Under the pieces are notes generated by a model, which was given only the letters and a program-made list of their open reading frames with translations, was not told the origin of the DNA and did not search any database. The translations under genes were made by a program, and so were the position numbers. This document shows positions 5,203-52,181 of a DNA stretch of 56,530 bases, in pieces (positions within the stretch are counted from its first letter, which is position 1; each line of letters opens with the position of its first letter). Source of the stretch: an uncultured Marinomonas sp. (lineage in GTDB: Bacteria; Pseudomonadota; Gammaproteobacteria; Pseudomonadales; Marinomonadaceae); the NCBI GenBank assembly GCA_938009755.1, contig CALLIL010000018.1, forward strand, positions 1 to 56,530, read 5' to 3'.

Positions 5203-5269
5203 TAAGATCTTTAAAATTTCTCAGTCCATTTTTGATAGTGAAGTTGAGACATCTCTCGCCCTCGCTAAC

Positions 5270-5480: not shown

Positions 5481-6125
5481 ATGGAAGAACATACAGATAA
5501 GCAGCTACTTGAAGCTGTAGATAAAGGCTGCAAATTATCATTTGATGAATTTAAAAAGCGTTATAGGCCTCGTATAAAGTCTTTGTATGAAAAAGCCTTT
5601 CCTAAAGCCGAAGGCTTTTTACGTTATGATCGTGATGATTTATATAATGATATTGAAATGGAAGTGTGGGCTAAACTTTACAAGTCTCGACTTAATAAGG
5701 AATGGTACTTTGATGAGAATGACTCTATTGGCGGTCTTGTTCATCGCTGCGCTAGTAGTTTGATTTCAGACAAAATTACCGTGGCTTTAAATCATCGTTC
5801 TCATCTAAGTAAAGAAAAAAGAATGGCTAGTTCTGATGATCTTAATAAAACTATTTCAATGCATCATAATGGTTTCGATGATAATAATGTTGAAGGAGAT
5901 GCAGAATTAAATTTCTTTGATGATATGGAGTTGTCGCCAGAGTTTACAAATAAACTTCAAAGCCAGTTAGATCAGGAAGAGCAGGCTATTTATAGTTTGT
6001 TATCTAAAGGATTTAAGCGCGCCCAAATTTTAGATGAACTGGGATTAACTAAGGATAAATATATTGGTCGTCGTGAGAAAATCACAAAAAAGGCCGTGGC
6101 ATTACTTTCAGAGAGCTCTTCATAG
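5481..6125 (+). CDS. Sigma-70/ECF-like transcription factor of the mobile element
   Basis: This 214-residue protein has two helical parts. An N-terminal region-2-like domain (about residues 10-105) contains FDEFKKRYRPRIKSLYEKAF, DRDDLYNDIEMEVWAKLY and GLVHRCASSLISDKI. A C-terminal region-4-like helix-turn-helix (about 160-205) contains EEQAIYSLLSKGFKRAQILDEL. An acidic linker of low complexity joins them. That is the layout of ECF sigma factors and sigma-like phage or island regulators. Its 3' end overlaps the convergent nucleotidyltransferase gene by 6 bases. Its targets are unknown; the assignment is by pattern. Confidence 0.6.
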   Translation: MEEHTDKQLLEAVDKGCKLSFDEFKKRYRPRIKSLYEKAFPKAEGFLRYDRDDLYNDIEMEVWAKLYKSRLNKEWYFDENDSIGGLVHRCASSLISDKITVALNHRSHLSKEKRMASSDDLNKTISMHHNGFDDNNVEGDAELNFFDDMELSPEFTNKLQSQLDQEEQAIYSLLSKGFKRAQILDELGLTKDKYIGRREKITKKAVALLSESSS

Positions 6126-6416
6126 AAGAGCTTTATTAAAGGAAAGCTTATCTAGGCTTATACAGCCTGTACGATTTATAAAATCAGTCTCTCGTTCTTC
6201 TGAAGGGAGCATATAAAGTATGTCTAAAGGTAAATTTTTGCTCGCTGCTTTTAGTTCTTTCTTTAGCTTTATCAGGGGGGAGCCGATGGGGCCGACAATC
6301 AGAATATCTATATCGTTACCTATGCCAGTTAAGGTTGAACCAAACATATAGGATTCGAAGTTTGATAATGTCTTGCAGGACTCAAGTAGATAGTAGGCTA
6401 CTTCGTTTGCAGCCAT
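6120..6416 (-). CDS. Minimal (MNT-type) nucleotidyltransferase
   Basis: The proposed 98-residue product (start MAANEVAYYLL) carries the polymerase-beta-type motif: GS at 26-27, Asp35 and Asp37 in GNDIDILIVG, and a third Asp at 66 in LPLDILYM. Proteins of this size act as antitoxins that modify a partner (MNT/HEPN) or make small nucleotide products. The ATG at 6416 shares one base with the TGA of the upstream gene (TGATG), implying translational coupling; an upstream ATG at 6467 would overlap that gene by 52 bases. It is third of three coupled genes and has no HEPN partner beside it. Confidence 0.75.
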   Translation of the reverse strand: MAANEVAYYLLESCKTLSNFESYMFGSTLTGIGNDIDILIVGPIGSPLIKLKKELKAASKNLPLDILYMLPSEERETDFINRTGCISLDKLSFNKALL

Positions 6417-7057
6417 CAGACAGTCGCTAGAAACTGCTTGAAACCCTCGTTTTTTAATACTAAGCATCCTAATTCCTTACCTGCTTGGATGGCTGTTTTG
6501 CATGGAAATCCATTAGGGTTAATATTCCAAGCAATATCAATGTAGCCAAATTTTTCGTGAAATGTACGAATATTATCTGATGTCGGTTCATAATCGTCGA
6601 TAAGGCCTACTCGAAGCTCTTTTCCGTTCTTTAAAGTGATGGTAAAGACTCTGTCGAACTCCCTTCTCGTTTGCTTAACTGAGCCGTACTGGCGTATCAA
6701 TCTAGAAGAAAATAAGAATGTTTTATGTTCTGCATGCGGTGCATCACCATCAATGGCTGCTGATATCATGGTTCTTGAATCTCCCCAGCCAACAGGTTCT
6801 CGATCAAGTGTTGCTATAGCACCACCTTCCCAAACACAATTTCTTCTATAGCCACAGATAAAATTGATTTCAGGATAATGCTGAAGATAGCTTTCAACTA
6901 AACTTTTACTTACCTGCTCTTCTGCTGAAATTAGAGCAATTGTTTCGGGCTGGTCAGGCATTGTAATCTTTATTACATCACCACGAACTTGTTGTGCTGT
7001 ATATCTTGATCCATGTTTGTTGATATTCTGAATAGCGTACTTAACTTGCCAGTTCAT
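6416..7057 (-). CDS. Unknown protein between an HNH nuclease and a nucleotidyltransferase
   Basis: This 213-residue soluble protein is not recognised. The start chosen (MNWQVKYAIQNINKHG) overlaps the HNH gene stop by four bases (ATGA), so translation is coupled; a longer ATG at 7111 would overlap more. The sequence is mixed alpha/beta, with noticeable motifs ICGYRRNCVWEGGAIATL (about 67-84), VGWGDSRTM (about 89-97) and GLIDDYEPTSDNIRTFHEKFG (about 151-171). No signal peptide or membrane segment is visible. Context suggests it works with the HNH nuclease and nucleotidyltransferase, but no function can be given. Confidence 0.7.
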   Translation of the reverse strand: MNWQVKYAIQNINKHGSRYTAQQVRGDVIKITMPDQPETIALISAEEQVSKSLVESYLQHYPEINFICGYRRNCVWEGGAIATLDREPVGWGDSRTMISAAIDGDAPHAEHKTFLFSSRLIRQYGSVKQTRREFDRVFTITLKNGKELRVGLIDDYEPTSDNIRTFHEKFGYIDIAWNINPNGFPCKTAIQAGKELGCLVLKNEGFKQFLATV

Positions 7058-7746
7058 TTGAAAATGTCCTTCATTCCTTGTGGGAAGCGAATCGCTCCAC
7101 CAATTCCACATATATGTCTATTTGTTAGCCCTCGAACATGTTCTTGGTAGTCTGAGAATATCTCCCTTTCATTGTCTTCAAGAAGTTCGTAGTTAGCCTG
7201 AATAATAGACTTGATCGTATAGTGATTAGGTAGAATCACTCCTTTAACTCGCTGATCCCAAATAGCAGCCTTATCTGACTCAGGGTCAAATTCGAATTCA
7301 GTACCATCTATTGGTGCAAACTTCTTCCATATAGCTTTATTCTCATCTAGTTTTTGAATCACTGCTGCCCGTGCTTTAGATCTGCTTCCGTATAGCTTGA
7401 TTCCTTGATGAGTAGCAAGATTTGCTAGATGCATTTCCTTCCATTCCAAAAGTATTTGCCTAGGGTAAGCATCTGGATTTTTATCAATGATAGTGTGGCA
7501 TGTTGGGCAAAGTAGAATTAAGTTTTCAAATGAATCGGCTTCATACTCTTCAGCTGCTTCGGTGCTACGAGGGCCAAGCTTGCCGTGAGGTAGAACGTGT
7601 GCCATTTCTGCTATATGTTTAAACCCATTGAGCTCTTCAGGGTATAAAGAGTCTAAACATTCAGGTCTTTGACAATGACCTGCCGAACTTGCAAAAAGCC
7701 TTAGTCGAATTTCTGTTGGAATTGCTTTCCGTGTGGTTTTAGTCAC
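7054..7746 (-). CDS. HNH endonuclease
   Basis: This 230-residue protein has an N-terminal HNH domain with a four-cysteine zinc knuckle (Cys25, Cys30, Cys80, Cys83). The catalytic pattern is His50 in EMAHVLPHG, Asn75 in ENLILLCP and His84 in CPTCHTIID. The C-terminal half (about 115-230) is unrecognised, with no known domain visible. It starts with GTG, 7 bases after AAGGAA. It heads three overlapping genes (ATGA, then TGATG). HNH nucleases with unknown partner domains are common effectors in phage-defence cassettes; that role here is inference. Confidence 0.85.
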   Translation of the reverse strand: MTKTTRKAIPTEIRLRLFASSAGHCQRPECLDSLYPEELNGFKHIAEMAHVLPHGKLGPRSTEAAEEYEADSFENLILLCPTCHTIIDKNPDAYPRQILLEWKEMHLANLATHQGIKLYGSRSKARAAVIQKLDENKAIWKKFAPIDGTEFEFDPESDKAAIWDQRVKGVILPNHYTIKSIIQANYELLEDNEREIFSDYQEHVRGLTNRHICGIGGAIRFPQGMKDIFK

Positions 7747-7829
7747 TAAAAAATTCCTTTTAATTAATTTTTATCCTTATAAAAATAGCTGTAGCTGAGC
7801 GATACTTACAAGAATATGATTACATGACT

Positions 7830-9083
7830 CTATAAATCAAGGTTAGGTTTTGATATATGGATCACTTCAAAAATTATTTTTGCTAGGTCTGAAATTGCTG
7901 TTTTTCTTTCAGCAAAATAATCATATCGGTCATAAATCCCTTCGACGCCTTTAATCTTATGGTTTAGACAGCGTTCCGCTACATGGCTAGGAACGCCATT
8001 CTGCGCTAGCAGGCTTCGGCAGGTTCTCCGTAAATCATGTACTACGAAATGCTCAATTCCATGCTCACCTAGGATGTTTGGCAGTGGTTGCTTTTTTGAG
8101 TCTACTTTTTGTCCAAATAGCTTTGCTAGGGCGTGGTTTAATGTGTCGTCGCTAATATACTTTCGTCTTCTGCTAGACCTTCTTGAAGGGAACACATATT
8201 CTGATCCATTCGCTCTTACCATTAATTCTTGAAAGATAGGCTTTAGTTGATCAGGTAATGGTATTTTGATCTGAGCTACGGTTTTTGTCTTATTTGCATC
8301 TAGGGTCCATACCATTTTTTTAAAGTCGAACTCACTCCATTTTGCAGAAATAAGTTCGCCTTTACGGACTCCTAAGACAAGGAGGAGGACTAGAGCTAAG
8401 TAGTTTTCTCTCGTCATGATGTCTGTATGACGTTCAAAAACTTTAAATACTGTTTTTATTTCATCTAAAGATAATGCTCTATCTCTTGATTTCTCAGCTC
8501 CTCCTGCATCTTTTTCAGTAAATGGGGCTGCTGGATTATTAGCTAGAAGGTCTAATTTAAGAGCGTGGTTGAATAGCTGTTTACAATAATTAAGTGCATC
8601 ATTTGCAATCGAAGGGCGGCCGCTTTTGTTGATCGCTCGAATGATTTGTAAGATATCTCTTGAATTGACCTTATCTACTGCCAGATCACCAATGTAGGGA
8701 AATATATCTTTGCGATATACACGGGCTGGGATTTGAGGGTTTTTCAAATGGCGTTCACATTCAGAGAGCCAATCTTTAGCAACATCATTGACGGTGTTAA
8801 AGTGAGGGAGTTTATTTCTTTTTTTCTCTGCAATAGGATCAACGCCTTCTTTGATAGAGGCTCTTGTCTGTATTGCTTTTAGTTTGGCTTCACTGAGAGG
8901 CAGCCCTTCAGGAGGCTTTCCATAGCGTCCTAAACTGATTTCCCTACGTTTTCCGTTAATAGTATATCTAAGCACCCAAAACGCACTTTGTTGCTCTGTG
9001 ACTCGAAAGTATAGTCCGGTATCGACTTTGAACTTTCCGACCTTTCCTGCTTTTAGTGTGGCTTTTAGTTGAGCATCATTCAT
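7830..9083 (-). CDS. P4-type tyrosine integrase
   Basis: This 417-residue site-specific recombinase would insert and excise the element. An N-terminal DUF4102 arm-binding domain (about residues 1-85) is followed by a core-binding domain and the catalytic domain. Catalytic residues visible are Arg240 (LGVRKGEL), His349 and Arg352 (VHDLRRTC), His375 (CLNHKIKG) and Tyr384 (GIYDRYDY). It is the last element gene before yicC. A 13-bp inverted repeat overlaps its upstream region. Full length and intact motifs suggest it could still be functional. Confidence 0.93.
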   Translation of the reverse strand: MNDAQLKATLKAGKVGKFKVDTGLYFRVTEQQSAFWVLRYTINGKRREISLGRYGKPPEGLPLSEAKLKAIQTRASIKEGVDPIAEKKRNKLPHFNTVNDVAKDWLSECERHLKNPQIPARVYRKDIFPYIGDLAVDKVNSRDILQIIRAINKSGRPSIANDALNYCKQLFNHALKLDLLANNPAAPFTEKDAGGAEKSRDRALSLDEIKTVFKVFERHTDIMTRENYLALVLLLVLGVRKGELISAKWSEFDFKKMVWTLDANKTKTVAQIKIPLPDQLKPIFQELMVRANGSEYVFPSRRSSRRRKYISDDTLNHALAKLFGQKVDSKKQPLPNILGEHGIEHFVVHDLRRTCRSLLAQNGVPSHVAERCLNHKIKGVEGIYDRYDYFAERKTAISDLAKIIFEVIHISKPNLDL

Positions 9084-37291: not shown

Positions 37292-37351
37292 AAAAAAACC
37301 TGCTGGGCATCTGGAAAAATGCTAAACAGGTTTAACGGAATCTGTTTAGCA
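37292..37351 (-). promoter_or_regulatory. Possible transcription attenuator in the metK leader
   Basis: Read on the minus strand, hairpin A has arms TGCTAAACAG (37351-37342) and CTGTTTAGCA (37329-37320) and is followed by T5. Hairpin B pairs AAACCTG (37333-37327) with CAGGTTT (37302-37296), extended by T to 37292. The arms overlap, so only one can form. No known SAM-riboswitch core was recognised, and both hairpins look terminator-like, so the logic is unclear. Confidence 0.5.
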
Positions 37352-37530
37352 GCATTTATATAGCGTCCGCAAGCCGAGACAAATCGACGCTTTATTCAAG
37401 TGCGAATGATGGACGAGAGTTGCTTAAATATCAAGCAAAATAAGCAGATTTTAGTGAGTCAAGGCGGTATTTTTTTGTTACGATGGTGCAGATTCTGTGT
37501 CATTTCATTTTCTTTGCCCTGTGTTTGGGC

Positions 37531-39754: not shown

Positions 39755-40774
39755 ATGTTGCGAGTCGCTATTAATGGTTATGGTCGAATAGGGCGTGCGG
39801 TTCTAAGAGCGCTTTATGAAAACGGCTACCGCGACCACATTCAGGTGGTGGCAATTAATGAATTGTCTGATATCGAGACAATCAGTTATCTCACGCGCTA
39901 TGACACCACTCATGGTCGTTTTCCCCAGTCGGTGACGGTAGACGGCACAATCTTGATGATTAATGATGATCGGATTGCTTGTTTTTCTTGCGAAGACCCA
40001 AATGAATTAGACTGGGACGCGCTTGATGTGGATATGGTGCTGGAATGTTCTGGTAGCTTTTCTGATCGAGAAGGCGCGCAACATTATCTCGATGCTGGTG
40101 CTCCGAGAATATTACTTTCACAACCTGCGGCGTCAAATGTGGATGCGACGATTGTGTATGGCTTTAACCATCACACTCTTCAAGGCAATGAAAAGATTGT
40201 ATCAGCGGCGTCTTGTACAACAAATTGCCTTATACCTGTGTTGGATATGATTAAAAATGCAGTGGGTATCGATCATGGCGTAACGCAAACGATTCACTCT
40301 GCGATGAATGATCAGCCTGTCATTGACGCTTATAATCCAAAGGATTTACGTTTAACTCGTGCGGCATTGAGTTCTATTATTCCTGTGGATACGGGCTTAT
40401 CAAAAGGCATTACTCGCATGATGCCTGAGCTCGATGGGAAAATGGCTTGTAACGCGGTCCGAGTGCCAACCTTGAATGTTTCGGTGATTGATCTAGTGTT
40501 ACGAACAAGTAACGACGTGACGCTTGATGAAATTCATCAGCAATTAGAGCATGGCGCAAACACTAAATATGCGGGTTTGATGGGCTTTACTAAGGAAGCG
40601 CACGCTTCTGTTGATTTTAATCATGACCCAAGATCTGTGATCGTGGATAGTACACAAACGCAGGTAGTTGATAAGCGCATGATTAAATTATTGTGCTGGT
40701 TTGATAATGAATGGGGCTACGCTAATCGAATGTTAGATGTGGCCCAACACTGGGCAAGTGTGATCAAAGAATAA
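39755..40774 (+). CDS. epd: Erythrose-4-phosphate dehydrogenase
   Basis: This 339-residue GAPDH-family enzyme has the NAD-binding INGYGRIGRAVLRALYE and the catalytic Cys154 in SAASCTTNCL. The IHSAMNDQPVIDAY block is typical of Epd and differs from the usual GapA sequence. It makes 4-phosphoerythronate for pyridoxal phosphate synthesis. The order tkt-epd-pgk-fba is conserved in many gammaproteobacteria. The start has only a weak ribosome site (GTAGGG). Confidence 0.9.
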   Translation: MLRVAINGYGRIGRAVLRALYENGYRDHIQVVAINELSDIETISYLTRYDTTHGRFPQSVTVDGTILMINDDRIACFSCEDPNELDWDALDVDMVLECSGSFSDREGAQHYLDAGAPRILLSQPAASNVDATIVYGFNHHTLQGNEKIVSAASCTTNCLIPVLDMIKNAVGIDHGVTQTIHSAMNDQPVIDAYNPKDLRLTRAALSSIIPVDTGLSKGITRMMPELDGKMACNAVRVPTLNVSVIDLVLRTSNDVTLDEIHQQLEHGANTKYAGLMGFTKEAHASVDFNHDPRSVIVDSTQTQVVDKRMIKLLCWFDNEWGYANRMLDVAQHWASVIKE

Positions 40775-40834
40775 ATCTTTGGTTATAGAATCGAAAACTG
40801 TATTGAAAAATATTAAATGACGAGGATATCGTAC

Positions 40835-41998
40835 ATGACTGTAATTAACATGAAAGATTTGGATTTAGCGAATAAGCGCGTATTAATTCGTGAAGATTTA
40901 AACGTGCCAGTGAAAGACGGAGAAATCACTAGTGATGTGCGTATTCGTGCTGCATTGCCAACGATCAAATTGGCGTTAGAAGCCGGTGCGAAAGTCATGG
41001 TGATGTCTCACCTTGGTCGCCCAACGGAAGGTCAATACGAAGAAGAGTTTTCTCTTTTGCCTGTGGCAAAACACTTGTCTACTCTTTTGGGTCAAGAAGT
41101 GCCTTTAGTGAAAGATTGGTTAGATGGTGTTGACGTTGAAGCGGGTCAGGTTGTGTTGGTTGAAAACGTACGTTTTAACCTAGGTGAGAAAAAAGACGAC
41201 GAAGCTCTGTCTAAAAAAATGGCCGCTTTATGTGATGTGTATGTGATGGATGCCTTTGGTACGGCGCACCGTGCACAAGCGTCCACTCACGGTGTGGCAA
41301 AATTTGCCCCAGTTGCCTGTGCGGGCCCTTTATTGGCGGCTGAATTAGAGGCGTTAGGTAAAGCGTTGGATAATCCTGCTCGTCCTTTGGTCGCAGTTGT
41401 TGGTGGTTCTAAAGTATCGACTAAACTAACGGTTTTAGAGTCTTTGTCTAAGTTGTGTGACCAATTGATTGTTGGTGGCGGTATTTCAAACACCTTTGTT
41501 GCCGCTCGTGGTCATAACGTTGGTTTGTCTTTATATGAAAAAGACCTTATTCCTCAGGCGCAAAAATTGATGGCTGAATTGGACATTCCAGAAGTAACAG
41601 ATGTTCGTGTTGGTACGGAATTCTCTGATACAGCCGTTGCGACAATTAAGCCTGTTGATCAAGTGGCTGATAACGAAGAAATCATGGATTTAGGGCCAGA
41701 CTCCGCTCAAGCGATGGCTGAAATTTTAAAGGGCGCGAAAACGATTCTTTGGAATGGTCCGTGTGGCGTATTTGAATTCGATAATTTCTCTAAAGGTACG
41801 GAAGTAGTTGCTCAAGCGATCGCGAACAGCGATGCCTTTTCTGTTGCGGGTGGCGGTGATACGTTGGCGGCAATTGATAAGTATGGTTTGGCGGACAAAG
41901 TGTCTTATATTTCTACCGGTGGTGGTGCTTTCTTAGAATTTGTTGAAGGAAAAGTGCTTCCAGCTGTTGCGATGTTAGAGCTACGCGCGCAAAATTAG
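40835..41998 (+). CDS. pgk: Phosphoglycerate kinase
   Basis: This 387-residue glycolytic enzyme shows [50 protein letters not shown] and the nucleotide site [16 protein letters not shown]. The start [11 protein letters not shown] is chosen because GAGGATA lies 8 bases before it; an in-frame ATG at 40817 precedes that site. It is separated from fba by 251 bases containing a terminator. Confidence 0.96.
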
Positions 41999-42057
41999 TA
42001 TCAAAGAATGACAAAATAGCATTCTTATGCGGTTCAGGGCGAAAGCCTGTCATGAGA

Positions 42058-42111
42058 AACATTGTCTGATATCGATTGGTTTGCCTTCGAGGAGTGTCAG
42101 GCAATGTTTTT
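42058..42111 (+). terminator. Likely rho-independent terminator after pgk
   Basis: Arms AACATTGTCTGA (42058-42069) and TCAGGCAATGTT (42097-42108) pair with one G-T and are followed by T5. The 27-base loop is large for a terminator. Confidence 0.65.
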
Positions 42112-42249
42112 ATTGACGTTAAAGTCACTAATTTGACGTAGATCGAATAGGGCTTGAATTCTGTTATTGCTGAGTTAGCCAACACCCTAACAAGATGACA
42201 ATAACGACAAATAAAATAAAACAAGACAATCTGTCAGAGGAAAACTTGT

Positions 42250-43317
42250 ATGCCTTTAATTAGTATGCGACAGCTGCTAGACCATGCTGCAGAGCACAGT
42301 TACGGTTTACCTGCGTTCAATGTGAATAACATGGAGCAAGTAAAAGCCATTATGGAAGCGGCAGATGAAGTGAATTCACCTGTTATCATGCAGGCTTCTG
42401 CGGGTGCGCGCCAATACGCGGGTTCGCACTTTCTGCGTCATTTAATTGCAGCAGCAATTGAAGATTATCCTCATATTCCTGTGGTTATGCATCAGGATCA
42501 CGGTACGTCTCCTGCGATTTGTCAGCGCTCCATTCAGCTGGGTTTCTCTTCTGTGATGATGGATGGTTCTCTACAAGCAGACGGCAAAACGCCTGCCAGT
42601 TATGACTATAACGTGGATGTTACTCGTCGTACGGTAGAGTTCGCTCACGCTTGCGGTGTTTCTGTTGAAGGTGAGTTGGGTGTGCTTGGTTCTTTGGAAA
42701 CGGGAGAAGCGGGCGAAGAAGACGGCGTCGGTGCGGAAGGCATTTTGACAATGGATCAAATGCTGACAGATCCACAAGAAGCGGTTGATTTTGTGAATGC
42801 CACAGGCATTGACGCGTTGGCGGTAGCGATTGGTACAAGCCATGGTGCGTACAAATTTACGCGTCCACCGACAGGTGACATTTTAGATATCGAACGCATA
42901 GCAACCATTGTGGAACGTTTGCCGAATACTCACATTGTATTGCATGGCTCGTCGTCTGTTCCTCAAGATTGGTTGGCGATCATCAATGAATTCGGAGGCG
43001 AAATTCCTGAAACCTATGGCGTTCCTGTTGAAGAGATTGTGAAAGCAATTCGTTATGGTGTTCGTAAGGTAAACATTGATACGGATTTACGTTTAGCGGC
43101 TACAGGTGCTATTCGTCGTAGTTTGGCGGAACACAAAGGTAACTTTGATCCTCGTAAATATTTAACAGAAAGTATTCGCGCGATGAAAGCGGTTTGTATT
43201 GATCGCTATGAAGCCTTTGGTTGTGCTGGACAAGCATCTCGTATTAAAACGATGGATCTTGAAGAAATGGCCGTGCGTTATGAGCGTGGTGAATACAATC
43301 ATGGTCGTACTTTTTAA
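42250..43317 (+). CDS. fba: Fructose-bisphosphate aldolase, class II
   Basis: This 355-residue zinc enzyme belongs to the class IIB group. It has the N-terminal [10 protein letters not shown], the metal and substrate site [43 protein letters not shown] and [13 protein letters not shown]. It cleaves fructose-1,6-bisphosphate in glycolysis or makes it in gluconeogenesis. GAGGAAAAC precedes the ATG. It ends the tkt-epd-pgk-fba group. Confidence 0.96.
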
Positions 43318-43423
43318 TCACAGATTTATTTGCTGATTAAGGTAATGTGCCTGACATGTGCGAGCGAAAGAAGGCTAGTACTGATGTTTTTAGGATTTAT
43401 TTACTAAATAAGTAAAAAAACTA

Positions 43424-43451
43424 TTGACCCATAAAATCATTTGCCTATAAT
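43424..43451 (+). promoter_or_regulatory. Promoter of tRNA-Leu
   Basis: A near-consensus sigma-70 promoter: -35 TTGACC at 43424-43429, a 16-bp spacer, -10 TATAAT at 43446-43451, then GC-rich GCTCGCC as expected for a stringently controlled stable-RNA promoter. The tRNA starts 15 bases after the -10 box. Confidence 0.85.
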
Positions 43452-43465
43452 GCTCGCCATTCCTT

Positions 43466-43550
43466 GCGGGAGTGGTGGAATTGGTAGACACGCTGGATTT
43501 AGGTTCCAGTGCTTCACGGCGTGAGAGTTCGAGTCTCTCCTTCCGCACCA
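43466..43550 (+). tRNA. tRNA-Leu (anticodon UAG)
   Basis: The 85-nt gene folds into a class II tRNA: acceptor GCGGGAG / CTTCCGC, D-loop with GGTAGAC, anticodon loop TTTAGGT (UAG, reading CUN codons), a long variable arm, T-loop GTTCGAGTC, and encoded CCA at the 3' end. It has its own promoter and terminator. Confidence 0.96.
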
Positions 43551-43555
43551 TATTT

Positions 43556-43585
43556 AAAAAAGCTGACTTTATGTCGGCTTTTTTT
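43556..43585 (+). terminator. Rho-independent terminator after tRNA-Leu
   Basis: Stem GCTGAC / GTCGGC (one G-T) with a TTTAT loop, followed by T7, just behind the tRNA. Confidence 0.9.
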
Positions 43586-43739
43586 ATGTCTGAAAAATAT
43601 GCTTCCTTTCTTTGATTATTTCCATTGTGCTGTTTTAAACGGTTATTTTGGCTTCTAAATGTATTTTATTGTTCTTCCTGTCTCGAAAGTCCGCTAATTT
43701 GGTTAGAATAATGCTTCGTGCATTTTATTAGGCTCAATA

Positions 43740-44828
43740 ATGCGAAGATCTTTCTATTTCTCTGTACTTGTTTTCTTTTCGATGTTTTCGGTAGCCGCAG
43801 ATATGTCTTTGTATCTGATGGATGGAGAAGATTTTTATCGCGCTAGTCCTCGCCAAGCGTCCTTAGCTGAGCAATTTTCTGCCACAGTCAGATCTGACCC
43901 TTTGCCGATTCGCTTTAACCTAGCCCACCCTGTTCGTATTGCTATTTTGTTATTTGGTGAGAAGGACTCTGTTGAAAACCAAGCGCTACTGTTTACATTT
44001 AAGCGTCGGATGAGAGAGCTAGGTATTGACTATAGATTGGATACATATATAGACAGCTCTGTGAGAAAAGACGACGTTACGCTGTATTTTAAAATGGTTG
44101 ATGCTAAACCAGACTATATTGTGATGACAAAATTTGGCTTTATGCAGAGACGGTTTGTGGAACGTTTTTTGGCTTCAGGGAAGTCGAAAGTGATCTTATA
44201 CGATTTTGCGTCGCCTTTAACTTATTGGGTGAATGATCCTCCATTGATTTATATTGGCGTTGACCAAAAATTGGCAACGAAACGTCTTGTTGATTATCTG
44301 GATCGTCATTTGCCTAAAACAAGCCGGATATCTGCCATCGTTTCAGATGATAGTTATATGGAGCAAGTTCGGTGTAATTTATTCTTGGATGGAATCGCGA
44401 CACGTGGAAGAAAGCTTCACGTAATTAAAGTGATTCCTGATAATAGAACGCATGCTTTTCAGTCTACTAATACGTTGTTAAATGAAGGGAAAACAGATTT
44501 TATTTTTAGTTGTTCCCAAGAAATTTCCGAAGGTGTCGTTTCTGCCTTACAACAAAAAGGAACAAGCCATGTAGAAACCAATGCTTGGAAGCCTTGGTTT
44601 CCCTCTTCAGAAAGTTTTAAACAAACAATCAAAGCCAGCGTACTTTTTAACAAAGATGATTTATCAATTGCGGTGGCCGAAGCCATTAAACTCGATCTTG
44701 AAGGTCAGAATATGCCGTTGCTTTATATGTCTGGCTTCGAAGTCGTTGGCACGCAAGACAGTGAACATAATATGCAGCTTATGGTAGAGAAAATGTATCC
44801 CTATTCGGTGACTTTATGGCAGAGGTAA
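43740..44828 (+). CDS. LuxP-like periplasmic binding protein
   Basis: This 362-residue protein has a signal peptide (about 1-20) and a type I periplasmic-binding fold. Its order of motifs follows Vibrio LuxP, the AI-2 receptor: VRSDPLPI..PVRIAILLFG, DYIVMTKFGFMQRRFVERFL, KVILYDFASP, PLIYIGVDQ, FIFSCSQEISEGVVSAL and AEAIKLDLE. Against LuxP recalled from memory, Arg211 and Trp283 match pocket residues Arg215 and Trp289. However, the positions of LuxP Trp82, Asn159, Thr266 and Arg310 appear as Asn80, Asp155, Gln260 and Phe303. The ligand is probably not AI-2. It overlaps the next gene by 13 bases. Confidence 0.78.
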   Translation: MRRSFYFSVLVFFSMFSVAADMSLYLMDGEDFYRASPRQASLAEQFSATVRSDPLPIRFNLAHPVRIAILLFGEKDSVENQALLFTFKRRMRELGIDYRLDTYIDSSVRKDDVTLYFKMVDAKPDYIVMTKFGFMQRRFVERFLASGKSKVILYDFASPLTYWVNDPPLIYIGVDQKLATKRLVDYLDRHLPKTSRISAIVSDDSYMEQVRCNLFLDGIATRGRKLHVIKVIPDNRTHAFQSTNTLLNEGKTDFIFSCSQEISEGVVSALQQKGTSHVETNAWKPWFPSSESFKQTIKASVLFNKDDLSIAVAEAIKLDLEGQNMPLLYMSGFEVVGTQDSEHNMQLMVEKMYPYSVTLWQR

Positions 44829-47386
44829 CCATTAGTTTACAGCGACGGTTACAGCAGCGGATTTCTTTGCTATTGATGGCTGTCTTTTTGTTAATCGCAT
44901 TCGCTGCGCTGTACTTTTTTGGTTCATTCAACCAATCAGCGATGCGTCAAAACTTGGTCTTGAAACATCAAATTATTGGGCAAGTGTTTAATGGTTACTT
45001 AAACCGCGCAGAAGATGAAATGAGCTTAATTACTCAAAATTTATCGTTAAGCCATTTTGAGCAAGGCAGAGAGCTCGATTTGTTATTTCGCCATCATGAA
45101 GTGTTGCTTTTTGGTGGGTTAGATTTTTTTTATATCGAATGGCGAGATAGGCCCAATGCCTTGGATCCGAGAGCTCAACTGTTTACGGCAATGGAATTTA
45201 AAGGCGCTTTGAATAAAGGGCTCGTTGGTAGTTGGGTGACTTTTCTAACAGACGACGCTGTTTTTTTAATGTACAAGAAAAAAATTGTGTCTGATATAGA
45301 TGAAAATAATGGCTACCTTTATGGCTTCATCTCGTTGAACGATAATTTAACCTTGGCAAATGAGTTATTGGATGGCGCTAAGGTTGATGAAGTGCGTATT
45401 TATGACGATCAAGAAAGGCTGTTACTAAAAGAGCACAAAAGAGATGTAAAACTTGCTGATAATGCATTGAATTCTATCATGCCTCTTAGAACCTCTGTGC
45501 AGACAAGTTTGTCTCTAGAGATTATTGAAAACCCAGGGCCATACTACTTGATATTGAAACAGTCTATTTCATTTATTCTTGTGATTGGTGGCGTACTCTT
45601 TACTTTTTTCCTTCTGTTTATACATCAAGCTCGGCACTCAATATTCATGCCTCTTAAAAAAATTGATTATCACAATAAAGGTGAGAGTGTTTATCAAGAG
45701 TTAGAACCCATTTACCGAAAAAGCCAGCAAGATAAAGCCTTTATAAAAGCCAGAAATGAACGTTTTGCATTGCTGATGAAATCAACACACTGTGCCATTA
45801 TTTTTTGTAATGAAGTGGCTGAAATTGAAGTGATGAATGTTGAAGCACAGGAGATTTTTCCTGATTCTGTCGATGCTCGAACCGTGTTTGATTTTATGCC
45901 GATATCAAGTCATCGCTCTATACAGCAAGCGCTCAAAGGCGAGGTGGGTGTGAGTTTCGATCTAACAATAGATTCGCTGCGTCGTTTGTATAAATGGCAA
46001 GCGTACTCTTTTATCAACGAAAGCTCTTATCAGGGTGCTTTATTGGTTGGACGAGATATCACCAAAGAAACCAGTTTGGTGTGGCAATTAGATCAGTTAC
46101 AACCGCTTTCTACGATAGCGAAAAAAACGGTTGATGCAGAATCCATGCTGAATGAATTGGCTTATTTGTCTGCTTTGCCTCATAACATAAAAGAAGGGCA
46201 GATCCAAAATTGGGTACGGTTATTCATGTCTGTTTTGGAAAAGCTTAAAGACACCGAAGAGGATATAAGCTACATCGCGATTGGAGATGTGTTGTCAGAA
46301 GAGAGCGCATTGATTATGACTACGATGGATATTGAGAGTAATCGGGCTTTTATTGACTGTCCGTTGGCCGTTGGCGCCAGAGTCATTGCCGTTGATTCTA
46401 ATATTAAAGGGTTGATTCGAGTCTTGTTAATGATGGTTTTATCCAACGATATGGAAGAGCGCTGTTTGGGTGTGCGTTTATCTGGTGACCAACTTACCAT
46501 TACCGCCATGCATGATATGGCATCTAGACGGTTATTTTCGTGGATGATTAAAACCTTGCTTAGTCATTTAGGCGGCCGTCAGAAAATATTGCAGAACAAT
46601 GCATTAGAGCTCGAATGGAAGGTACACGTTGAGGCTCCTGAGCAAGGCCCAGTTACGTTGCTCAACCAGAAAACCGTTGCGTGGATTGCAAATGATTATC
46701 CGCGTCCTGGTATGATCAGCGGCTCATTAAATCGTTTGAATCTGTCTATTGAGCACTATATTTCAACAGCGAGCTTTTTTACTCAGTCTGGTAATGTTTC
46801 GAAATTTGATGCCATCCTGATCGGTTGTGATCAAGATATTGGCTCGCAGCTTGAAGTCACCGAAGCGCTGAAATTGAAATATAAGCGTCATGATTTACCC
46901 ATTATTTGGATTAACAGCTTTCATATTGAAAGCCCAGACTCTGATGTTTTTGTATTGTCAGGCTGTCCATTTGACTATAGTTTGCAGAAAATCCTATCGG
47001 GCGCATTTAAGCGAGAACCAATGGTGTCTTTATTGCCTTTGCATAATGAAGAATCTTGGCTGCTCGTTGGTGGAAGCAGAGTGACAAAAGCGATCTGGCA
47101 TTCCGTACTAAGTGAGTATGACTTATTGGTGCAGTGGGTAAATGATTTGAATTACTCTAACGTGGCTTTGTCGTATCATACGGCGTTAACTGTCGTGCTG
47201 CTTGAACCTCAACCCCATGAATTGTTGCTGACACTGCAAAGCGAGTTCCCAAACATTCGGTTTTTCTCGATACAGAATTGGCCTAGCATGCCAGCTAATG
47301 TGAGGGTTTCTAATGTGGATAAACCTCATTCTAGTCAAGAAATACAGGCGTTTGCAGAGCAAGTAATGACACAGAGCAGAGCATGA
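44816..47386 (+). CDS. LuxQ-like sensor with degenerate kinase and receiver domains
   Basis: This 856-residue inner-membrane protein has TM1 (about 15-37), a LuxQ-like periplasmic sensor (about 38-245), TM2 (about 246-270), and a PAS domain (about 315-415). A coiled region follows where the His-box should be (440-475, no SHE-R-P motif), then an ATPase-like fold without N or G boxes (about 520-605) and two receiver-like domains (about 618-735 and 746-855). In the last, the acidic pair is replaced (LLVGGS) and the phosphorylation Asp is Glu797 (VVLLEPQ), yet the Lys in VDKPHS is kept. It overlaps the LuxP-like gene, its likely partner. It probably signals without phosphotransfer. Confidence 0.75.
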   Translation: MAEVTISLQRRLQQRISLLLMAVFLLIAFAALYFFGSFNQSAMRQNLVLKHQIIGQVFNGYLNRAEDEMSLITQNLSLSHFEQGRELDLLFRHHEVLLFGGLDFFYIEWRDRPNALDPRAQLFTAMEFKGALNKGLVGSWVTFLTDDAVFLMYKKKIVSDIDENNGYLYGFISLNDNLTLANELLDGAKVDEVRIYDDQERLLLKEHKRDVKLADNALNSIMPLRTSVQTSLSLEIIENPGPYYLILKQSISFILVIGGVLFTFFLLFIHQARHSIFMPLKKIDYHNKGESVYQELEPIYRKSQQDKAFIKARNERFALLMKSTHCAIIFCNEVAEIEVMNVEAQEIFPDSVDARTVFDFMPISSHRSIQQALKGEVGVSFDLTIDSLRRLYKWQAYSFINESSYQGALLVGRDITKETSLVWQLDQLQPLSTIAKKTVDAESMLNELAYLSALPHNIKEGQIQNWVRLFMSVLEKLKDTEEDISYIAIGDVLSEESALIMTTMDIESNRAFIDCPLAVGARVIAVDSNIKGLIRVLLMMVLSNDMEERCLGVRLSGDQLTITAMHDMASRRLFSWMIKTLLSHLGGRQKILQNNALELEWKVHVEAPEQGPVTLLNQKTVAWIANDYPRPGMISGSLNRLNLSIEHYISTASFFTQSGNVSKFDAILIGCDQDIGSQLEVTEALKLKYKRHDLPIIWINSFHIESPDSDVFVLSGCPFDYSLQKILSGAFKREPMVSLLPLHNEESWLLVGGSRVTKAIWHSVLSEYDLLVQWVNDLNYSNVALSYHTALTVVLLEPQPHELLLTLQSEFPNIRFFSIQNWPSMPANVRVSNVDKPHSSQEIQAFAEQVMTQSRA

Positions 47387-47426
47387 TTTTAATGAATGAA
47401 TACAGTATGAGTTTTAGGAGTACAGA

Positions 47427-48119
47427 ATGAGTGTTATTGGTCTGATTGGTGCGATGGACGAAGAAGTGGCTGTTATCAAAGCATGGATGACAGATGTTCG
47501 AGAAGAGAGTATTGCAGGTTGTGATTTCTTTCTTGGCCATTTTGAAGGAAAAGACGTTGTATTGTTGAAGTCTGGCATTGGAAAAATCAACGCGGCCGTT
47601 TCAACGACGTTGTTATTGTCTCAATATAAGCCTGAATATGTGATTAACATCGGCTCGGCTGGTGGTTTTGATCCAGACCTTAATGTAGGCGATGTCGTTA
47701 TTTCTGATCAGGTTGTGCATCATGATGTCGATGTGACTGCGTTTGGTTATGTGATGGGACAAGTGCCGAATATGCCGGCGACTTATGCTGCCGATCAAAC
47801 CCTCATTGATCAGGCAAAAGCCGCGGTAGCGTCCGTTACAACAATTCAAGCAAAAGTCGGTCTGATCGGTACGGGCGATAGCTTTATGAATGATCCTGTC
47901 CGTGTGGAATCTGTGCGAGCTACCTTTCCGGATCTGGTTGCTGTTGAGATGGAAGCGGCCGCGGTAGCTCAAGTGTGTTTTAAATTTGAAACGCCTTTTG
48001 TTGTTGTGCGTTCTTTATCGGATATTGCCGGTAAAGAGTCTCCTCAAAGCTTTGAAGAATACCTGAAAGTAGCGGCTGAAAACTCCTCGCTGATGATTCA
48101 AGCAATGCTGAGAGGCTGA
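47427..48119 (+). CDS. mtnN: 5'-methylthioadenosine/S-adenosylhomocysteine nucleosidase
   Basis: This 230-residue enzyme (Pfs) splits SAH and MTA, recycling by-products of SAM use; from SAH it gives the precursor of AI-2 where LuxS is present. Motifs are IGLIGAMDEEVAVI, SGIGKINAAVSTT, NIGSAGGF, GDSFMND, VAVEMEAAAVAQVC and VVRSLSDIAG (catalytic Asp). AGGAG precedes the ATG. It lies 40 bases after the LuxQ-like gene and shares a base with the next gene (TGATG). Confidence 0.95.
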   Translation: MSVIGLIGAMDEEVAVIKAWMTDVREESIAGCDFFLGHFEGKDVVLLKSGIGKINAAVSTTLLLSQYKPEYVINIGSAGGFDPDLNVGDVVISDQVVHHDVDVTAFGYVMGQVPNMPATYAADQTLIDQAKAAVASVTTIQAKVGLIGTGDSFMNDPVRVESVRATFPDLVAVEMEAAAVAQVCFKFETPFVVVRSLSDIAGKESPQSFEEYLKVAAENSSLMIQAMLRG

Positions 48120-49150
48120 TGAAAAAGGCAATGCACAAGCTGTGTCGTTGGAAGCGTGTTCACAGTGCAATGTTTTGTTTTAGTGTACTGTTCTCTTCCC
48201 TTGTTTGTGCTAACGACGCCATAAATAATACGGCGTCGTTAGCTGCAGATGAAGTGGAACAAGATAATGAAGAAGAGCTCCCTTGGTGGCAAGACACACA
48301 TCATGTCATGTCGAGAACCATAGGTGGCTGGTCTAACAATATGGATGCCTTCTTATCGGGCAGACCCAGTTTGGGGGCTTCAGAAAGTCAGATTCAAATG
48401 CGCTTTGGTTCCATCTTCAATGAAGGCGGTATTACAGAAGAAAACACTTCTGGCTTTTTTAACCTCAATGCACAATTAAAGCTCCCAAATACGCAAGATA
48501 GGTTGCGCTTAGTCATTGAGTCTGATGGCAACGCCTTAACACCTGAGAATGTTCGTGGTGAATCAACAGAAGGCGATAGTGTGATCAGTTCGGCTTTTCA
48601 ATCGAGCTTTTCAACCGCGGTGCGGTTTGTAAAATCAGACTTAGGCGCGGATTTTGACCTTGGTGTGTTGATCGACTTTCCTTTTGATCCTTTTATGCGT
48701 TTGCGCTTCTCTCAAGGTCATGAGTACTCAAACTGGCAGTGGTGGCAGAAGCAAGAAGCTTTTGCTTATTATTCTGATGGTGTTGGTGCTCGTTATGGCA
48801 TTGGCGCTAGCCATCAAGTGACAGAAAACCTGAATTATGGTGCGGATTTTAGTACGGTTTGGCTCGATCAAGACGGGCTTTTTTATACGCGAGAAAACTT
48901 TTTTCTACACCATGTCATCAATGAAAAGAATCAATTCAGCTATCAGCTTAGTTTTTTGCAATCGGGAGAGCATTTTGTTGAGCCAGACACTGTCTTATAT
49001 AACTTGCAGTATGAGCGATTTATTTATCAAGACTGGTTAATTGGGCAAATAAAACCACAGTTTACTCATGAATCGGAAAATGACTTTGAAGGTGAGTTTT
49101 CATTAACCCTGTCTATGGCCATTTTGTTAGGTCCTGAATATTTGCACTGA
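48119..49150 (+). CDS. Predicted outer-membrane beta-barrel protein, unknown function
   Basis: This 343-residue protein has a signal peptide (cleavage near SLVCA-NDAIN), an acidic spacer, and then many alternating amphipathic strands with aromatic residues (GFFNLNAQLKLP, FDLGVLIDFPFDPFMRLRFSQG, LNYGADFSTVWLDQDG, QFSYQLSFLQSG). It ends in a short aromatic/hydrophobic stretch. That suggests a small outer-membrane barrel, but no named family is recognised. Its ATG overlaps the mtnN stop by one base, so it is translated with mtnN and is the last gene of the luxPQ-like operon. Confidence 0.65.
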   Translation: MKKAMHKLCRWKRVHSAMFCFSVLFSSLVCANDAINNTASLAADEVEQDNEEELPWWQDTHHVMSRTIGGWSNNMDAFLSGRPSLGASESQIQMRFGSIFNEGGITEENTSGFFNLNAQLKLPNTQDRLRLVIESDGNALTPENVRGESTEGDSVISSAFQSSFSTAVRFVKSDLGADFDLGVLIDFPFDPFMRLRFSQGHEYSNWQWWQKQEAFAYYSDGVGARYGIGASHQVTENLNYGADFSTVWLDQDGLFYTRENFFLHHVINEKNQFSYQLSFLQSGEHFVEPDTVLYNLQYERFIYQDWLIGQIKPQFTHESENDFEGEFSLTLSMAILLGPEYLH

Positions 49151-49296
49151 CTTTCATCGATGGATTTTAATGGCTGATTAGATTTGTGCTGGTGGAACTC
49201 GTATAATGCCGCGCGTTATCGTCGACCAAGGGCAATAACCATTTTATTATTTTTTAGGACAGTTCGTTTCTATCACTTCCAAGAGAGCCAGCAGCC

Positions 49297-50400
49297 ATGA
49301 GACCGGATCAGATCAAACCAGAAATGTATGAACAACAGCTGCAAGCTAAGCAGGCAGAGCTGGCAGAATTAATGTCGTCTCTTTCTTTGCCTGAAATGGA
49401 AGTGTACGCAAGCAAACCATCTCATTACCGAATGAGAGCAGAATTTCGTATTTGGCATGATGGCGATGACTTATTTTACGCCATGTTTGACTCTGCAGAT
49501 CCGAGAACGCCTATTCGAACTGATCAATTTCTTGCTGCATCTGAACAAATTAATGCGCTTATGCCAAAGCTTCTTGATGCGGTACGTGACGTGCCTATTT
49601 TACGCCATAAGCTTTTTCAGGTGGACTTTCTGACCACTACAACAGGCGAAGCTTTGATTAGCTTGCTTTACCATAAGCCAATTGATGAAGAGTGGAATGC
49701 GGCGGCTAAGCTATTAGATCGTGCTTTTCCTGCGTGCCATTTTATCGGCCGTAGTCGTAAGAAGAAGCAAATCCTTACTCGTGATTTTGTGATGGAAACA
49801 CTCACCGTACACGGTGAAAAATATCATTATCAACAAGTTGAAAATAGCTTTACTCAGCCTAATGCCGGCATCAGTGAAAAAATGTTGGAATGGGCGCTTG
49901 ATGTGACTGAAAATGCGTCGGGTGATTTGCTAGAAATGTATTGTGGTAATGGAAATTTTTCAATTCCTCTAGCGCGACGTTTTGATCGGGTTGTCGCTAC
50001 TGAAATATCAAAGGTGTCAGTAAACTCTGCGCAACTTAATATTGCGATGAATGGGATGAAGAATATCCAAGTCGTGAAAATGGCAAGTGAAGATGTTTCG
50101 GCCGCCTTGAATGGCGATGTGGAACTGCCGAAAAGCTTAGTCCAAGCAGGTGTGAGTGAACTGTCTCCTTCCGTTGTGTTGGTGGATCCACCGAGAGCTG
50201 GATTGGATGATGCGACAGTAGAATTAATACGAAAAATTGATTCTATTCTTTATGTTTCTTGTAACCCTGAAACGTTGAAAGCGAATTTAGAAGCCTTGTC
50301 TACCACTCATGATGTAGTTCGTTATGCCATGTTTGATCAATTCCCTTATACGCATCATGTGGAAACTGCCGTTTACTTGACGAGAAAAGCGCAATTATAA
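49297..50400 (+). CDS. trmA: tRNA (uracil54-C5)-methyltransferase
   Basis: This 367-residue SAM-dependent enzyme makes T54 in tRNA. It shows SKPSHYRMRAEFRIWHDG, LEMYCGNGNFSIPLA (SAM site), VDPPRAGLDD, the catalytic Cys in YVSCNPETL, and the C-terminal HHVETAVYL with the general-base Glu. TrmA is favoured over RlmC/RlmD because there is no TRAM domain and no iron-sulfur cysteine cluster. The ATG follows a weak GAGAG site. It has its own upstream region. Confidence 0.95.
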   Translation: MRPDQIKPEMYEQQLQAKQAELAELMSSLSLPEMEVYASKPSHYRMRAEFRIWHDGDDLFYAMFDSADPRTPIRTDQFLAASEQINALMPKLLDAVRDVPILRHKLFQVDFLTTTTGEALISLLYHKPIDEEWNAAAKLLDRAFPACHFIGRSRKKKQILTRDFVMETLTVHGEKYHYQQVENSFTQPNAGISEKMLEWALDVTENASGDLLEMYCGNGNFSIPLARRFDRVVATEISKVSVNSAQLNIAMNGMKNIQVVKMASEDVSAALNGDVELPKSLVQAGVSELSPSVVLVDPPRAGLDDATVELIRKIDSILYVSCNPETLKANLEALSTTHDVVRYAMFDQFPYTHHVETAVYLTRKAQL

Positions 50401-50411
50401 AGGAGTTAACC

Positions 50412-50449
50412 AGGAAGGCTGATATACCGCATTTTTTATGAGCCTTCCT
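50412..50449 (+). terminator. Possible terminator hairpin after trmA
   Basis: Perfect 9-bp arms AGGAAGGCT and AGCCTTCCT with a 20-base loop begin 12 bases after the trmA stop. Only CTCTTGTTAT follows, so efficiency is doubtful. Confidence 0.45.
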
Positions 50450-50555
50450 CTTGTTATAATGAAATACATTCTTATAACGACATAAAATTGCCTATTATTT
50501 TGTGTTAGCATAAGCACCAAATTTCCCCCACCACAATAGAGAAGTTAAACAAGCC

Positions 50556-51785
50556 ATGAGTAACAACTCACTAGACAAAGATAAAATTAAGATCTTGTTG
50601 TTAGAAGGTGTTCATCAATCTGCGATTGAAGCATTAAATGACGCTGGCTATACCAACATTGAATATCACAAAACAGCATTGGCGGAAGATGAGCTTATCG
50701 AGAAAATCTCGGAAGCGCACTTTATTGGTATTCGTTCTCGTACGCAGTTAACAGCCAAAGTATTGGAGCACGCGAATAAGTTGGTGAGTATCGGTTGTTT
50801 TTGTATCGGTACAAATCAGGTGGATCTGGATGCGGCAAGTTCCAAAGGCATTGTTGTCTTTAATGCACCTTACTCTAATACTCGTAGTGTTGCGGAGTTG
50901 GCACTGGGCCAATTGATTCTATTACTGCGTGCTATTCCTGCTAAAAATGCCGCGTGTCATCGTGGTGGTTGGATTAAGTCCGCTGTTGGTTCTTATGAAA
51001 CTCGTGGTAAGCGATTGGGTATCATAGGCTACGGTAGCATTGGTACTCAGTTGAGTGTGTTGGCTGAGTCTCTTGGTATGGAAGTGTGCTTCTACGATAT
51101 CGTGACTAAATTGCCACTAGGTAATGCGCGTCAGATCAAGAGTTTGAAAGAGCTGCTGTCTACGAGTGATGTGATCAGTTTGCATGTGCCTGAAACAAAC
51201 TCGACGAAATTGATGATTGGTGCAAAAGAAGTTTCTCAAATGAAGAAAGGCGCTATCTTTATGAATGCTTCTCGTGGAACCGTTGCTGATTTAGACGCCG
51301 TTGCTGATGCGATTAAAGCGGGTGATTTGGCGGGTGCCGCTGTGGATGTATTCCCAGTTGAACCAAAAGGCAATACAGAAGAATTCGTTTCACCATTGCG
51401 TGGCTTAGATAACGTGATTCTAACGCCTCATATTGGTGGTAGCACAATGGAAGCACAAGAGAATATTGGTATCGAAGTCGCTGAGAAGTTGATCAAATAT
51501 TCTGATGTAGGTACGACGATTGCGGCTGTTAACTTTCCTGAAGTTGCATTGCCTGCACAATCAGACAATCATCGTCTTTTGCATATTCATGAAAACCGTC
51601 CTGGCGTACTGTCAAAAATCAACGCTATTTTCTCAGATAACAACATCAATATTACAGGCCAATATCTTCGTACGACGGAAAAATTGGGATATATGGTAAT
51701 GGATGTAGATGCAGACGAAGGGCATTTGGCGCTTGAGAAGCTTAAAGAAGTTGAAGGTACCGTAAAAGCACGCGTACTGTTCTAA
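50556..51785 (+). CDS. serA: D-3-phosphoglycerate dehydrogenase
   Basis: This 409-residue enzyme starts serine synthesis from 3-phosphoglycerate. It has the substrate domain (GIRSRTQLTAKVL), the NAD-binding LGIIGYGSIGTQ, the catalytic Arg in MNASRGTVADLDA, His in LTPHIGGST, and a C-terminal ACT domain (HENRPGVLSKINAIFSDNNINI), which implies feedback by serine. The length matches the E. coli form. A terminator follows. Confidence 0.96.
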   Translation: MSNNSLDKDKIKILLLEGVHQSAIEALNDAGYTNIEYHKTALAEDELIEKISEAHFIGIRSRTQLTAKVLEHANKLVSIGCFCIGTNQVDLDAASSKGIVVFNAPYSNTRSVAELALGQLILLLRAIPAKNAACHRGGWIKSAVGSYETRGKRLGIIGYGSIGTQLSVLAESLGMEVCFYDIVTKLPLGNARQIKSLKELLSTSDVISLHVPETNSTKLMIGAKEVSQMKKGAIFMNASRGTVADLDAVADAIKAGDLAGAAVDVFPVEPKGNTEEFVSPLRGLDNVILTPHIGGSTMEAQENIGIEVAEKLIKYSDVGTTIAAVNFPEVALPAQSDNHRLLHIHENRPGVLSKINAIFSDNNINITGQYLRTTEKLGYMVMDVDADEGHLALEKLKEVEGTVKARVLF

Positions 51786-51813
51786 ACTTAAGTTCTGAGT
51801 CCGAGTGATGAAT

Positions 51814-51846
51814 AAAAAAATCCAGCCAATATGGCTGGATTTTTTT
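51814..51846 (+). terminator. Rho-independent terminator after serA
   Basis: A perfect stem AATCCAGCC / GGCTGGATT with an AATAT loop is flanked by A and T runs. Confidence 0.95.
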
Positions 51847-52181
51847 ATGCTTAATTGATAGCCAAAAAAGCAATTGCTTGGGGAGGTATAAATTAGTGGG
51901 TTGTTTAAAGGTTTTATGTATTCTATTAATTAGAGTGTAGCCGATAGCCGTGATTAGAAAATCATAATTTTGCCTCATAGCGACACAATTTTGCTTATTA
52001 GTGCATTATTATTTTTTCATCTTTATATGCAATCAAAAAAGCTGGCGTGGTAACTTTTTCGTCATTATTTTGTAATAGAGTAAAAATCATATTAGGCAAA
52101 GGCTTAATAGATGTCATATTGAATGACTTGATACCCGTTTATAGAAAACATGAACCATTACTAAACTAAAGGAGTTAACCA
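51847..52181 (+). other. Intergenic region upstream of the polyamine transporter operon
   Basis: This AT-rich stretch holds no convincing gene. It should carry the promoter of the potD-like operon. The last bases contain the strong GGAG ribosome site (52172-52175). No clear operator or riboswitch was recognised, although the long region leaves room for regulation. Confidence 0.5.

Follow-up and report, generated by a model that had tools for sequence, protein, structure and literature searches.

The probable receptor described here combines a layout like that of the quorum-sensing hybrid kinase LuxQ, in its C-terminal half a predicted one, with the loss of the phosphotransfer motifs. It is encoded in a window of 56,530 nucleotides, contig CALLIL010000018.1 of an uncultured Marinomonas sp. 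(assembly GCA_938009755.1, 2.5 Mb, 78% complete), where its open reading frame (44816-47386, forward strand) is uninterrupted, starts with ATG and codes for 856 amino acids, next to a gene for a LuxP-like periplasmic binding protein. We think it reasonably likely that the product is a LuxP-coupled transmembrane receptor derived from a LuxQ-type hybrid kinase, which has kept the folds and lost the phosphotransfer motifs throughout the genus, and which would signal by allostery or protein contact. The comparisons establish, at the level of sequence, the LuxP/LuxQ ancestry, the absence of the motifs, the presence of the gene throughout the genus, its purifying selection, and its linkage with mtn and usually with an outer-membrane protein gene. 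A role in signalling that is independent of phosphorylation probably follows from the motif loss, the LuxQ ancestry and the selection.

A LuxQ relative beside LuxP

The comparison with the PDB of a profile built from 23 upstream proteins retrieved four distinct LuxP sequences at an E-value of about 1e-71, the next best match being at 0.0055; by this comparison the upstream family has both the sequence and the fold of LuxP. In the case of the window protein itself, LuxQ-periplasm was the only Pfam family at E<=1, with 14.9 bits against a curated cut-off of 25.7, and the NCBIfam profile LuxQ_Vibrio gave a weak match (4.1e-6, 25 bits). Among 41 family members, 35 match LuxQ-periplasm at E<=1 (best 8.8e-7), and the window protein is one of them; the family profile matched the V. 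cholerae LuxQ periplasmic domain (PDB 3c30, E 1.3e-4). When the family was aligned by hhalign with four Vibrio LuxQ, taken from Vibrio replicons filed as plasmids (6 records, 4 used), the periplasmic domain, the second membrane helix and the PAS domain were collinear over 363 columns (probability 98.5, E 2.8e-15). The most diverged copy, that of genome G337, matched LuxQ_Vibrio at 4.2e-14 and 51.4 bits over residues 88-435 only; both it and the window protein stay under the cut-off of that profile, 1200 bits, to be compared with 1299.8 bits for a Vibrio control. Foldseek, given a full-length model of the window protein (mean predicted local distance difference test (pLDDT) 74, predicted TM-score (pTM) 0.42), returned the LuxQ periplasmic structures 3c38, 3c30, 2hj9, 2hje and 1zhh (E 1.1e-8 to 8.5e-7, TMt 0.65-0.72).

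On the strength of the adjacent LuxP, the profile-profile alignment, the periplasmic fold match and the LuxQ_Vibrio matches, the window protein is a genuine LuxQ relative beside LuxP, with a LuxQ-type periplasmic domain paired with that partner, although taken alone it falls under the Pfam cut-off. Both the intact gene of 856 codons and the LuxQ-like layout of sensor and PAS domain, as read in a first-pass annotation made from the letters of the window, are borne out.

Loss of the phosphotransfer motifs

Residues 416-856 of the window protein gave no Pfam match at E<=0.1. The same scan recovered from two Vibrio LuxQ the families HisKA (2.5e-20 and 2.9e-20), HATPase_c (1.4e-28 and 6e-29) and Response_reg (7e-24 and 8.2e-26). 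For the 41 family members, 25 of 33 matching Pfam families were listed, with no kinase or receiver family among them; judging from list order, the remaining 8 were each matched by a single member. Motifs and residues were then counted in a set of 47 distinct intact Marinomonas copies, for which 7 of 54 loci had been removed as duplicates and from which two cases are excluded: genome G011, where the gene is fragmented, and locus L038, whose LuxP open reading frame has only 250 amino acids. All 47 copies lack the five motif patterns sought, which stand for the N box, G1, G2 and, in two versions, the H box; this holds after residue 380 as well as over the whole length, and each of the patterns was present in all four Vibrio LuxQ. 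The protein thus lacks the catalytically equipped HisKA, HATPase_c and receiver domains of LuxQ, and the profile search produced no canonical HisKA or HATPase motif to contradict the earlier reading that no H-, N- or G-box is to be found. By eye, S543-N544 is recognisable as a remnant of the N box (Asn in 32 of 47 copies), and comparison with Vibrio LuxQ suggests that the ATP lid, the stretch between G1 and G2, is missing, the following helix and its Leu-Gly-Gly being kept. A glutamate of the DHp-like segment, E447, is invariant (47/47).

The two receiver-like domains had both been called dead in the first-pass annotation. In the first of them, the acceptor position is occupied by Gly in 43 copies and by Ala in 4, and the Lys position by Lys in none; the loss of these two sites agrees with that description, from which the retention of one acid of the acidic pair (D627, in 42 of 47) departs. 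In the second, G752-G753 stands in place of the acidic pair in every copy, followed at residue 754 by Ser (39 copies), Thr (7) or Gly (1), and the acceptor position 797 is Glu in 29, Asp in 13, Ser in 2, Thr in 2 and Val in 1. E797 and the GGS of residues 752-754 lie where they had been placed, the Glu not being fixed in the family. Similarly, the Lys-Pro said to be kept is present here as K836-P837, and its Pro is widespread (39/47), but its Lys is no family feature (3/47, window included). In the most diverged copies these residue counts depend on the alignment; the receivers' conserved Thr/Ser, whose column was hard to place, is left out of them.

Conservation and selection in Marinomonas

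The family profile matches all 48 Marinomonas genomes (in G011 as fragments); with the threshold set at E<=1e-20, it matches 18 of 390 genomes of the order, all of them Marinomonas. The 14 named records that contain the protein likewise all belong to this genus. The reading frame is open in 47 of 47 copies. At all 47 loci, luxP, luxQ and mtn follow each other in this order on a single strand, neighbouring genes overlapping or lying apart by no more than 40 bases; in the window, the 3' end of the luxP-like gene and the start of the luxQ-like gene overlap by 13 bases.

The ratio dN/dS (omega) was estimated from 16 independent close pairs, of which 8 were usable, the other 8 having saturated dS. 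For the whole gene it lies between 0.06 and 0.10. By domain, it is 0.02-0.15 for the DHp-like segment, 0.04-0.14 for the CA-like domain, 0.04-0.14 for receiver 1 and 0.08-0.54 for receiver 2, where the value of 0.54 comes from one pair with a dS of 0.07, all others being at most 0.15. The same pairs give 0.02-0.04 for Mtn and 0.05-0.10 for LuxP. The luxQ-like gene is under purifying selection and is not a case of decay in a single strain; the dN/dS comparison suggested along with the first-pass annotation therefore gave purifying selection, and no random decay was seen among the orthologues.

Of seven regions of the protein, conservation is highest in the PAS domain, with a mean pairwise identity of 0.54 versus 0.32-0.45 for the other six, the CA-like domain being at 0.32. 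The distances between LuxP proteins agree most closely with the periplasmic-domain distances (partial r of 0.82 given Mtn, versus 0.44-0.62 for the six other regions, as values to which no significance test was applied). This correlation fits a continued docking of LuxP on the periplasmic domain, and is no proof of it.

As for a second, active LuxQ in the source genome, the family profile gives one match only. A search with PF09308 returned nothing in the source genome and nothing in 274 genomes of the class, and is uninformative on absence because it missed the gene of the window itself and matched no control. The LuxQ_Vibrio profile had three strong matches in the source genome (3 of the 45 candidates that were scored); in other genomes, the listed matches fall mainly in the general kinase-receiver part of that profile.

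Predicted folds of the C-terminal half

Residues 416-856, modelled from a 15-sequence alignment, gave a mean pLDDT of 78.9 and a pTM of 0.68. The best Foldseek match of this model is ShkA, a kinase of the order DHp-CA-receiver-receiver (E 1.1e-9, 511 columns). ZraS and KinB come next, and the further matches are mostly DHp-CA structures (1e-5 to 4e-4), with RetS at rank 6 and the pseudokinase DivL at rank 28. The family profile also matched receivers of the PDB over receiver 1 (7c1j at 1.9e-4, 2b4a at 2.6e-4). The C-terminal half is thus predicted to be a histidine-kinase core followed by two receivers, with the folds and without the chemistry. It would include a pseudo-histidine kinase, that is a kinase fold, here a predicted one, without kinase functions and under selection, and two pseudo-receivers, the first indicated by sequence profile and model, the second by the model.

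The LuxP pocket and the AI-2 pathway

Eleven ligand-contact residues of LuxP were taken from a docking paper (PMC9920117); two of these residues also appear in a review among the S-THMF-borate contacts (PMC3794749). All eleven are kept in the five comparison LuxP proteins. In the Marinomonas copies, six of the eleven are retained in at most one: Q77, W82, T266 and D267 in none, D136 and R310 in 1 of 47. N159 is kept in 12, S79 in 22 and T134 in 35. The ligand of LuxP has likely changed in the genus, and it is probably not, or not only, borated autoinducer-2 (AI-2). In favour of the receptor model proposed below, G337 keeps the receptor gene although neither LuxS nor the outer-membrane protein family has a match there.

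At E<=1e-25, the LuxP profile matched 2 of 369 genomes of the class, the source genome and G738. In the latter, which lies outside Marinomonas, the LuxP homologue (locus L117) keeps 11 of 11 compared contact residues and stands beside a GGDEF-EAL protein (4816-5997 and 5939-8821); this LuxP is apparently coupled to an enzyme of cyclic di-GMP (c-di-GMP).

Downstream of the receptor, a Qrr search gave 0/47 and is uninformative, its controls likewise remaining without a match. Single-domain Hpt open reading frames are present, which need not be LuxU; in the two genomes inspected, every such gene has a histidine kinase gene as neighbour, and the stretches listed, looked through by eye, showed no LuxO, no dedicated LuxO search having been made. 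On contig C36 of the source genome (L132), a small single-domain Hpt gene (4733-5086) directly follows a gene (2917-4731) for a 604-amino-acid protein that by eye resembles a histidine kinase and has Gly at the acceptor position of its C-terminal receiver-like part.

Proposed model and alternatives

In the model we favour, the LuxP-like protein would still dock on the periplasmic domain, and its ligand state would pass via the PAS domain to the pseudokinase/pseudo-receiver module. This module would signal by a conformational protein-protein contact, as DivL does, and not by phosphate; alternatively, the output could proceed via the binding of a small molecule. A bolder form of the model, whose full chain of steps we consider unlikely, is that the genus has turned a two-component quorum-sensing receptor into a phosphate-free one: the changed LuxP pocket would sense not AI-2 but another ligand, and the signal would be relayed by the dead core and its glycine-loop pseudo-receiver via a nucleotide messenger or a protein partner.

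Several points weigh against the favoured model. In G011, the luxQ-like gene is broken by frame changes into fragments on contigs C27 and C44 (L050, L051), reaching the contig ends, which may reflect an assembly error or decay. When pieces of the C-terminal half were compared directly, profile to profile, with pieces of the four Vibrio LuxQ, none of 20 comparisons was significant (best P 0.02), so that the derivation of the C-terminal half from a kinase core is drawn mainly from structures predicted with the 15-sequence alignment. The superpositions are loose (for ShkA, TM-score 0.36 and root-mean-square deviation 23 A), as would be expected if the domains are differently placed, and taken alone do not prove a domain-by-domain match. 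In the LuxP pocket, R215 (38/47) and W289 (47/47) are kept, and the loss is not preferential, since 4745 of 20000 random sets, drawn from positions conserved in the five comparison LuxP proteins, were retained as poorly; the loss of AI-2 binding is therefore not established. LuxS was found in 47 of 48 genomes of the genus, the source genome included, by a search that matched 5 of 14 control genomes, so that most Marinomonas can probably make AI-2. Given this and the luxO homologues reported in Oceanospirillales with LuxP (PMC2561040), an AI-2 pathway could still operate.

The protein could instead act in trans, by pairing with or titrating an active histidine kinase or response regulator in the manner of RetS or DivL, the phosphate flowing only in the partner. 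We find this doubtful. The predicted DHp-CA-type fold with RetS and DivL among its matches, the purifying selection on the DHp segment and the precedent of DivL (PMC4211667) argue for it, but the DHp segment is short, its H-box region is unrecognisable, and no two-component gene was seen by eye among the open reading frames of at least 100 amino acids at 40000-52000 of the window. Rather improbable, in our judgement, is that the pseudo-receivers serve to bind a small molecule, for example a nucleotide second messenger, with the Gly-Gly loop of receiver 2 as candidate site, so that periplasmic and cytoplasmic signals would be combined. The invariance of G752-G753, and the Ser or Thr that nearly always follows, would suit such a site, as would the closest fold match, ShkA, whose pseudo-receiver binds c-di-GMP (PMC7010744, PMC12632262); on the other hand, glycine loops are common, ShkA is an active kinase, and no binding motif was recognised, none having been searched for. 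It is very unlikely that the protein is still an enzyme, a kinase or phosphatase with shifted catalytic residues: the remnants N544, D627 and the Asp found at 797 in some copies speak for it, but the His, N and G motifs are missing from every copy, Pfam is negative, and the residue counts give no complete receiver pocket. Decay into a LuxQ relic, to which the fast divergence of the family, in which identity with the window protein falls as low as 22%, and the one fragmented copy might point, is ruled out by the low omega and the open frames of a family present in 48 of 48 genomes.

The gene cluster

The features of the cluster and of its receptor, in the preferred reading a LuxP-coupled protein without phosphotransfer, are collected in Table 1. 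Among the 24 loci whose flanks are long, 23 have a homologue of the outer-membrane protein gene 3' of mtn, and the family has matches in 45 of 48 genomes of the genus, those without being G337, G005 and G012. It belongs to no clear Pfam family; OMP_b-brl matched weakly in 5 of 17 members. A scan for promoters and terminators found neither type of site above chance. Elsewhere in the window, a SAM_alpha riboswitch match lies at 37325-37400 on the reverse strand (36.6 bits, cut-off 36); the family is named for alpha-proteobacteria and the host is gamma-proteobacterial.

Table 1. Positions in the window of the cluster genes and of the domains of the LuxQ-like protein.
Feature	Position	Strand	Evidence
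LuxP-like periplasmic binding protein, 362 amino acids	43740..44828	+	Peripla_BP_4 1.7e-8 (just under cut-off); LuxP by family profile
LuxQ-like pseudo-hybrid kinase, 856 amino acids	44816..47386	+	Open reading frame, profile, motif and selection evidence
Membrane helix 1, about residues 16-36	44861..44923	+	Hydrophobic stretch by eye within long model helix 2-78
LuxQ-type periplasmic sensor, about residues 40-248	44933..45559	+	LuxQ-periplasm matches, profile against 3c30, Foldseek
Membrane helix 2, about residues 250-272	45563..45631	+	Hydrophobic stretch by eye within model helix 243-281
PAS domain, about residues 310-415	45743..46060	+	Collinear with the LuxQ PAS
Short DHp-like helical segment, residues 416-482, no recognisable phospho-accepting His	46061..46261	+	
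CA-like (Bergerat-type) domain, residues 483-612, without G boxes	46262..46651	+	Predicted model, Foldseek, motif counts
Pseudo-receiver 1, residues 618-735; acceptor position G670, Lys position C717	46667..47020	+	Profile against PDB receivers, model
Pseudo-receiver 2, residues 745-856; invariant Gly-Gly for acidic pair, E797 at acceptor position	47048..47383	+	Predicted fold and pattern only
Mtn/Pfs, 5'-methylthioadenosine/S-adenosylhomocysteine nucleosidase, cluster gene 3	47427..48119	+	TIGR01704 8.5e-97
Probable outer-membrane beta-barrel protein, 343 amino acids, cluster gene 4	48119..49150	+	Weak OMP_b-brl match in relatives

Relation to known systems

With the LuxPQ pair of Vibrio, the Marinomonas system shares the LuxP gene directly 5' of luxQ, the periplasmic fold, the membrane helices, the PAS domain and the length (855-860 amino acids in four Vibrio). 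It differs by the absence of the kinase and receiver motifs, by a largely changed LuxP pocket, by the number of receiver-like domains (two, against the single one that Pfam detects in two Vibrio LuxQ), and by the addition of mtn and the outer-membrane gene to the cluster. DivL of Caulobacter likewise uses a PAS domain and a kinase fold without kinase activity; in DivL, however, Tyr replaces His and the H, N, G1, F and G2 boxes are kept (PMC4211667), whereas the Marinomonas protein has none of the patterns tested, carries a periplasmic domain of the LuxQ type and has two receivers that are both degenerate. Caulobacter ShkA, the best fold match, has the same order of folds, but it autophosphorylates and has a functional receiver (PMC7010744, PMC12632262).

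The operon itself has been noted before. Rezzonico and Duffy reported in 2008 a LuxP homologue, a PAS protein and pfs in Marinomonas sp. MED121, in which no luxS turned up; they described the protein in the middle as a transcriptional regulator moderately homologous to V. cholerae LuxQ, and the possibility of AI-2 listening was raised for Marinomonas (PMC2561040). In the part of that paper available to us, the loss of the kinase motifs and the spread through the genus are not mentioned. On account of its LuxP, M. mediterranea MMB1 is classed among the AI-2 'listeners' in a 2024 survey (PMC11069264). Pseudo-histidine kinases and pseudo-receivers are already known kinds of protein (PMC4211667; review PMC12632262). 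In the literature searched, which covers few subscription journals, we met no LuxQ described as lacking its kinase motifs, and in the available text of one review that also names LuxQ, the word 'pseudokinase' refers to another protein. What appears to be new here is the combination, on a receptor of the quorum-sensing type, of the absence of all tested kinase patterns with the degeneration of both receivers.

In conclusion, since the partner of LuxP is without phosphotransfer motifs in 47 intact copies, the usual route from LuxQ to LuxU and LuxO cannot be assumed in Marinomonas. The genus would offer a natural case of phosphate-free signalling by a membrane receptor of the histidine-kinase type, for which a well-studied active relative is at hand for comparison.

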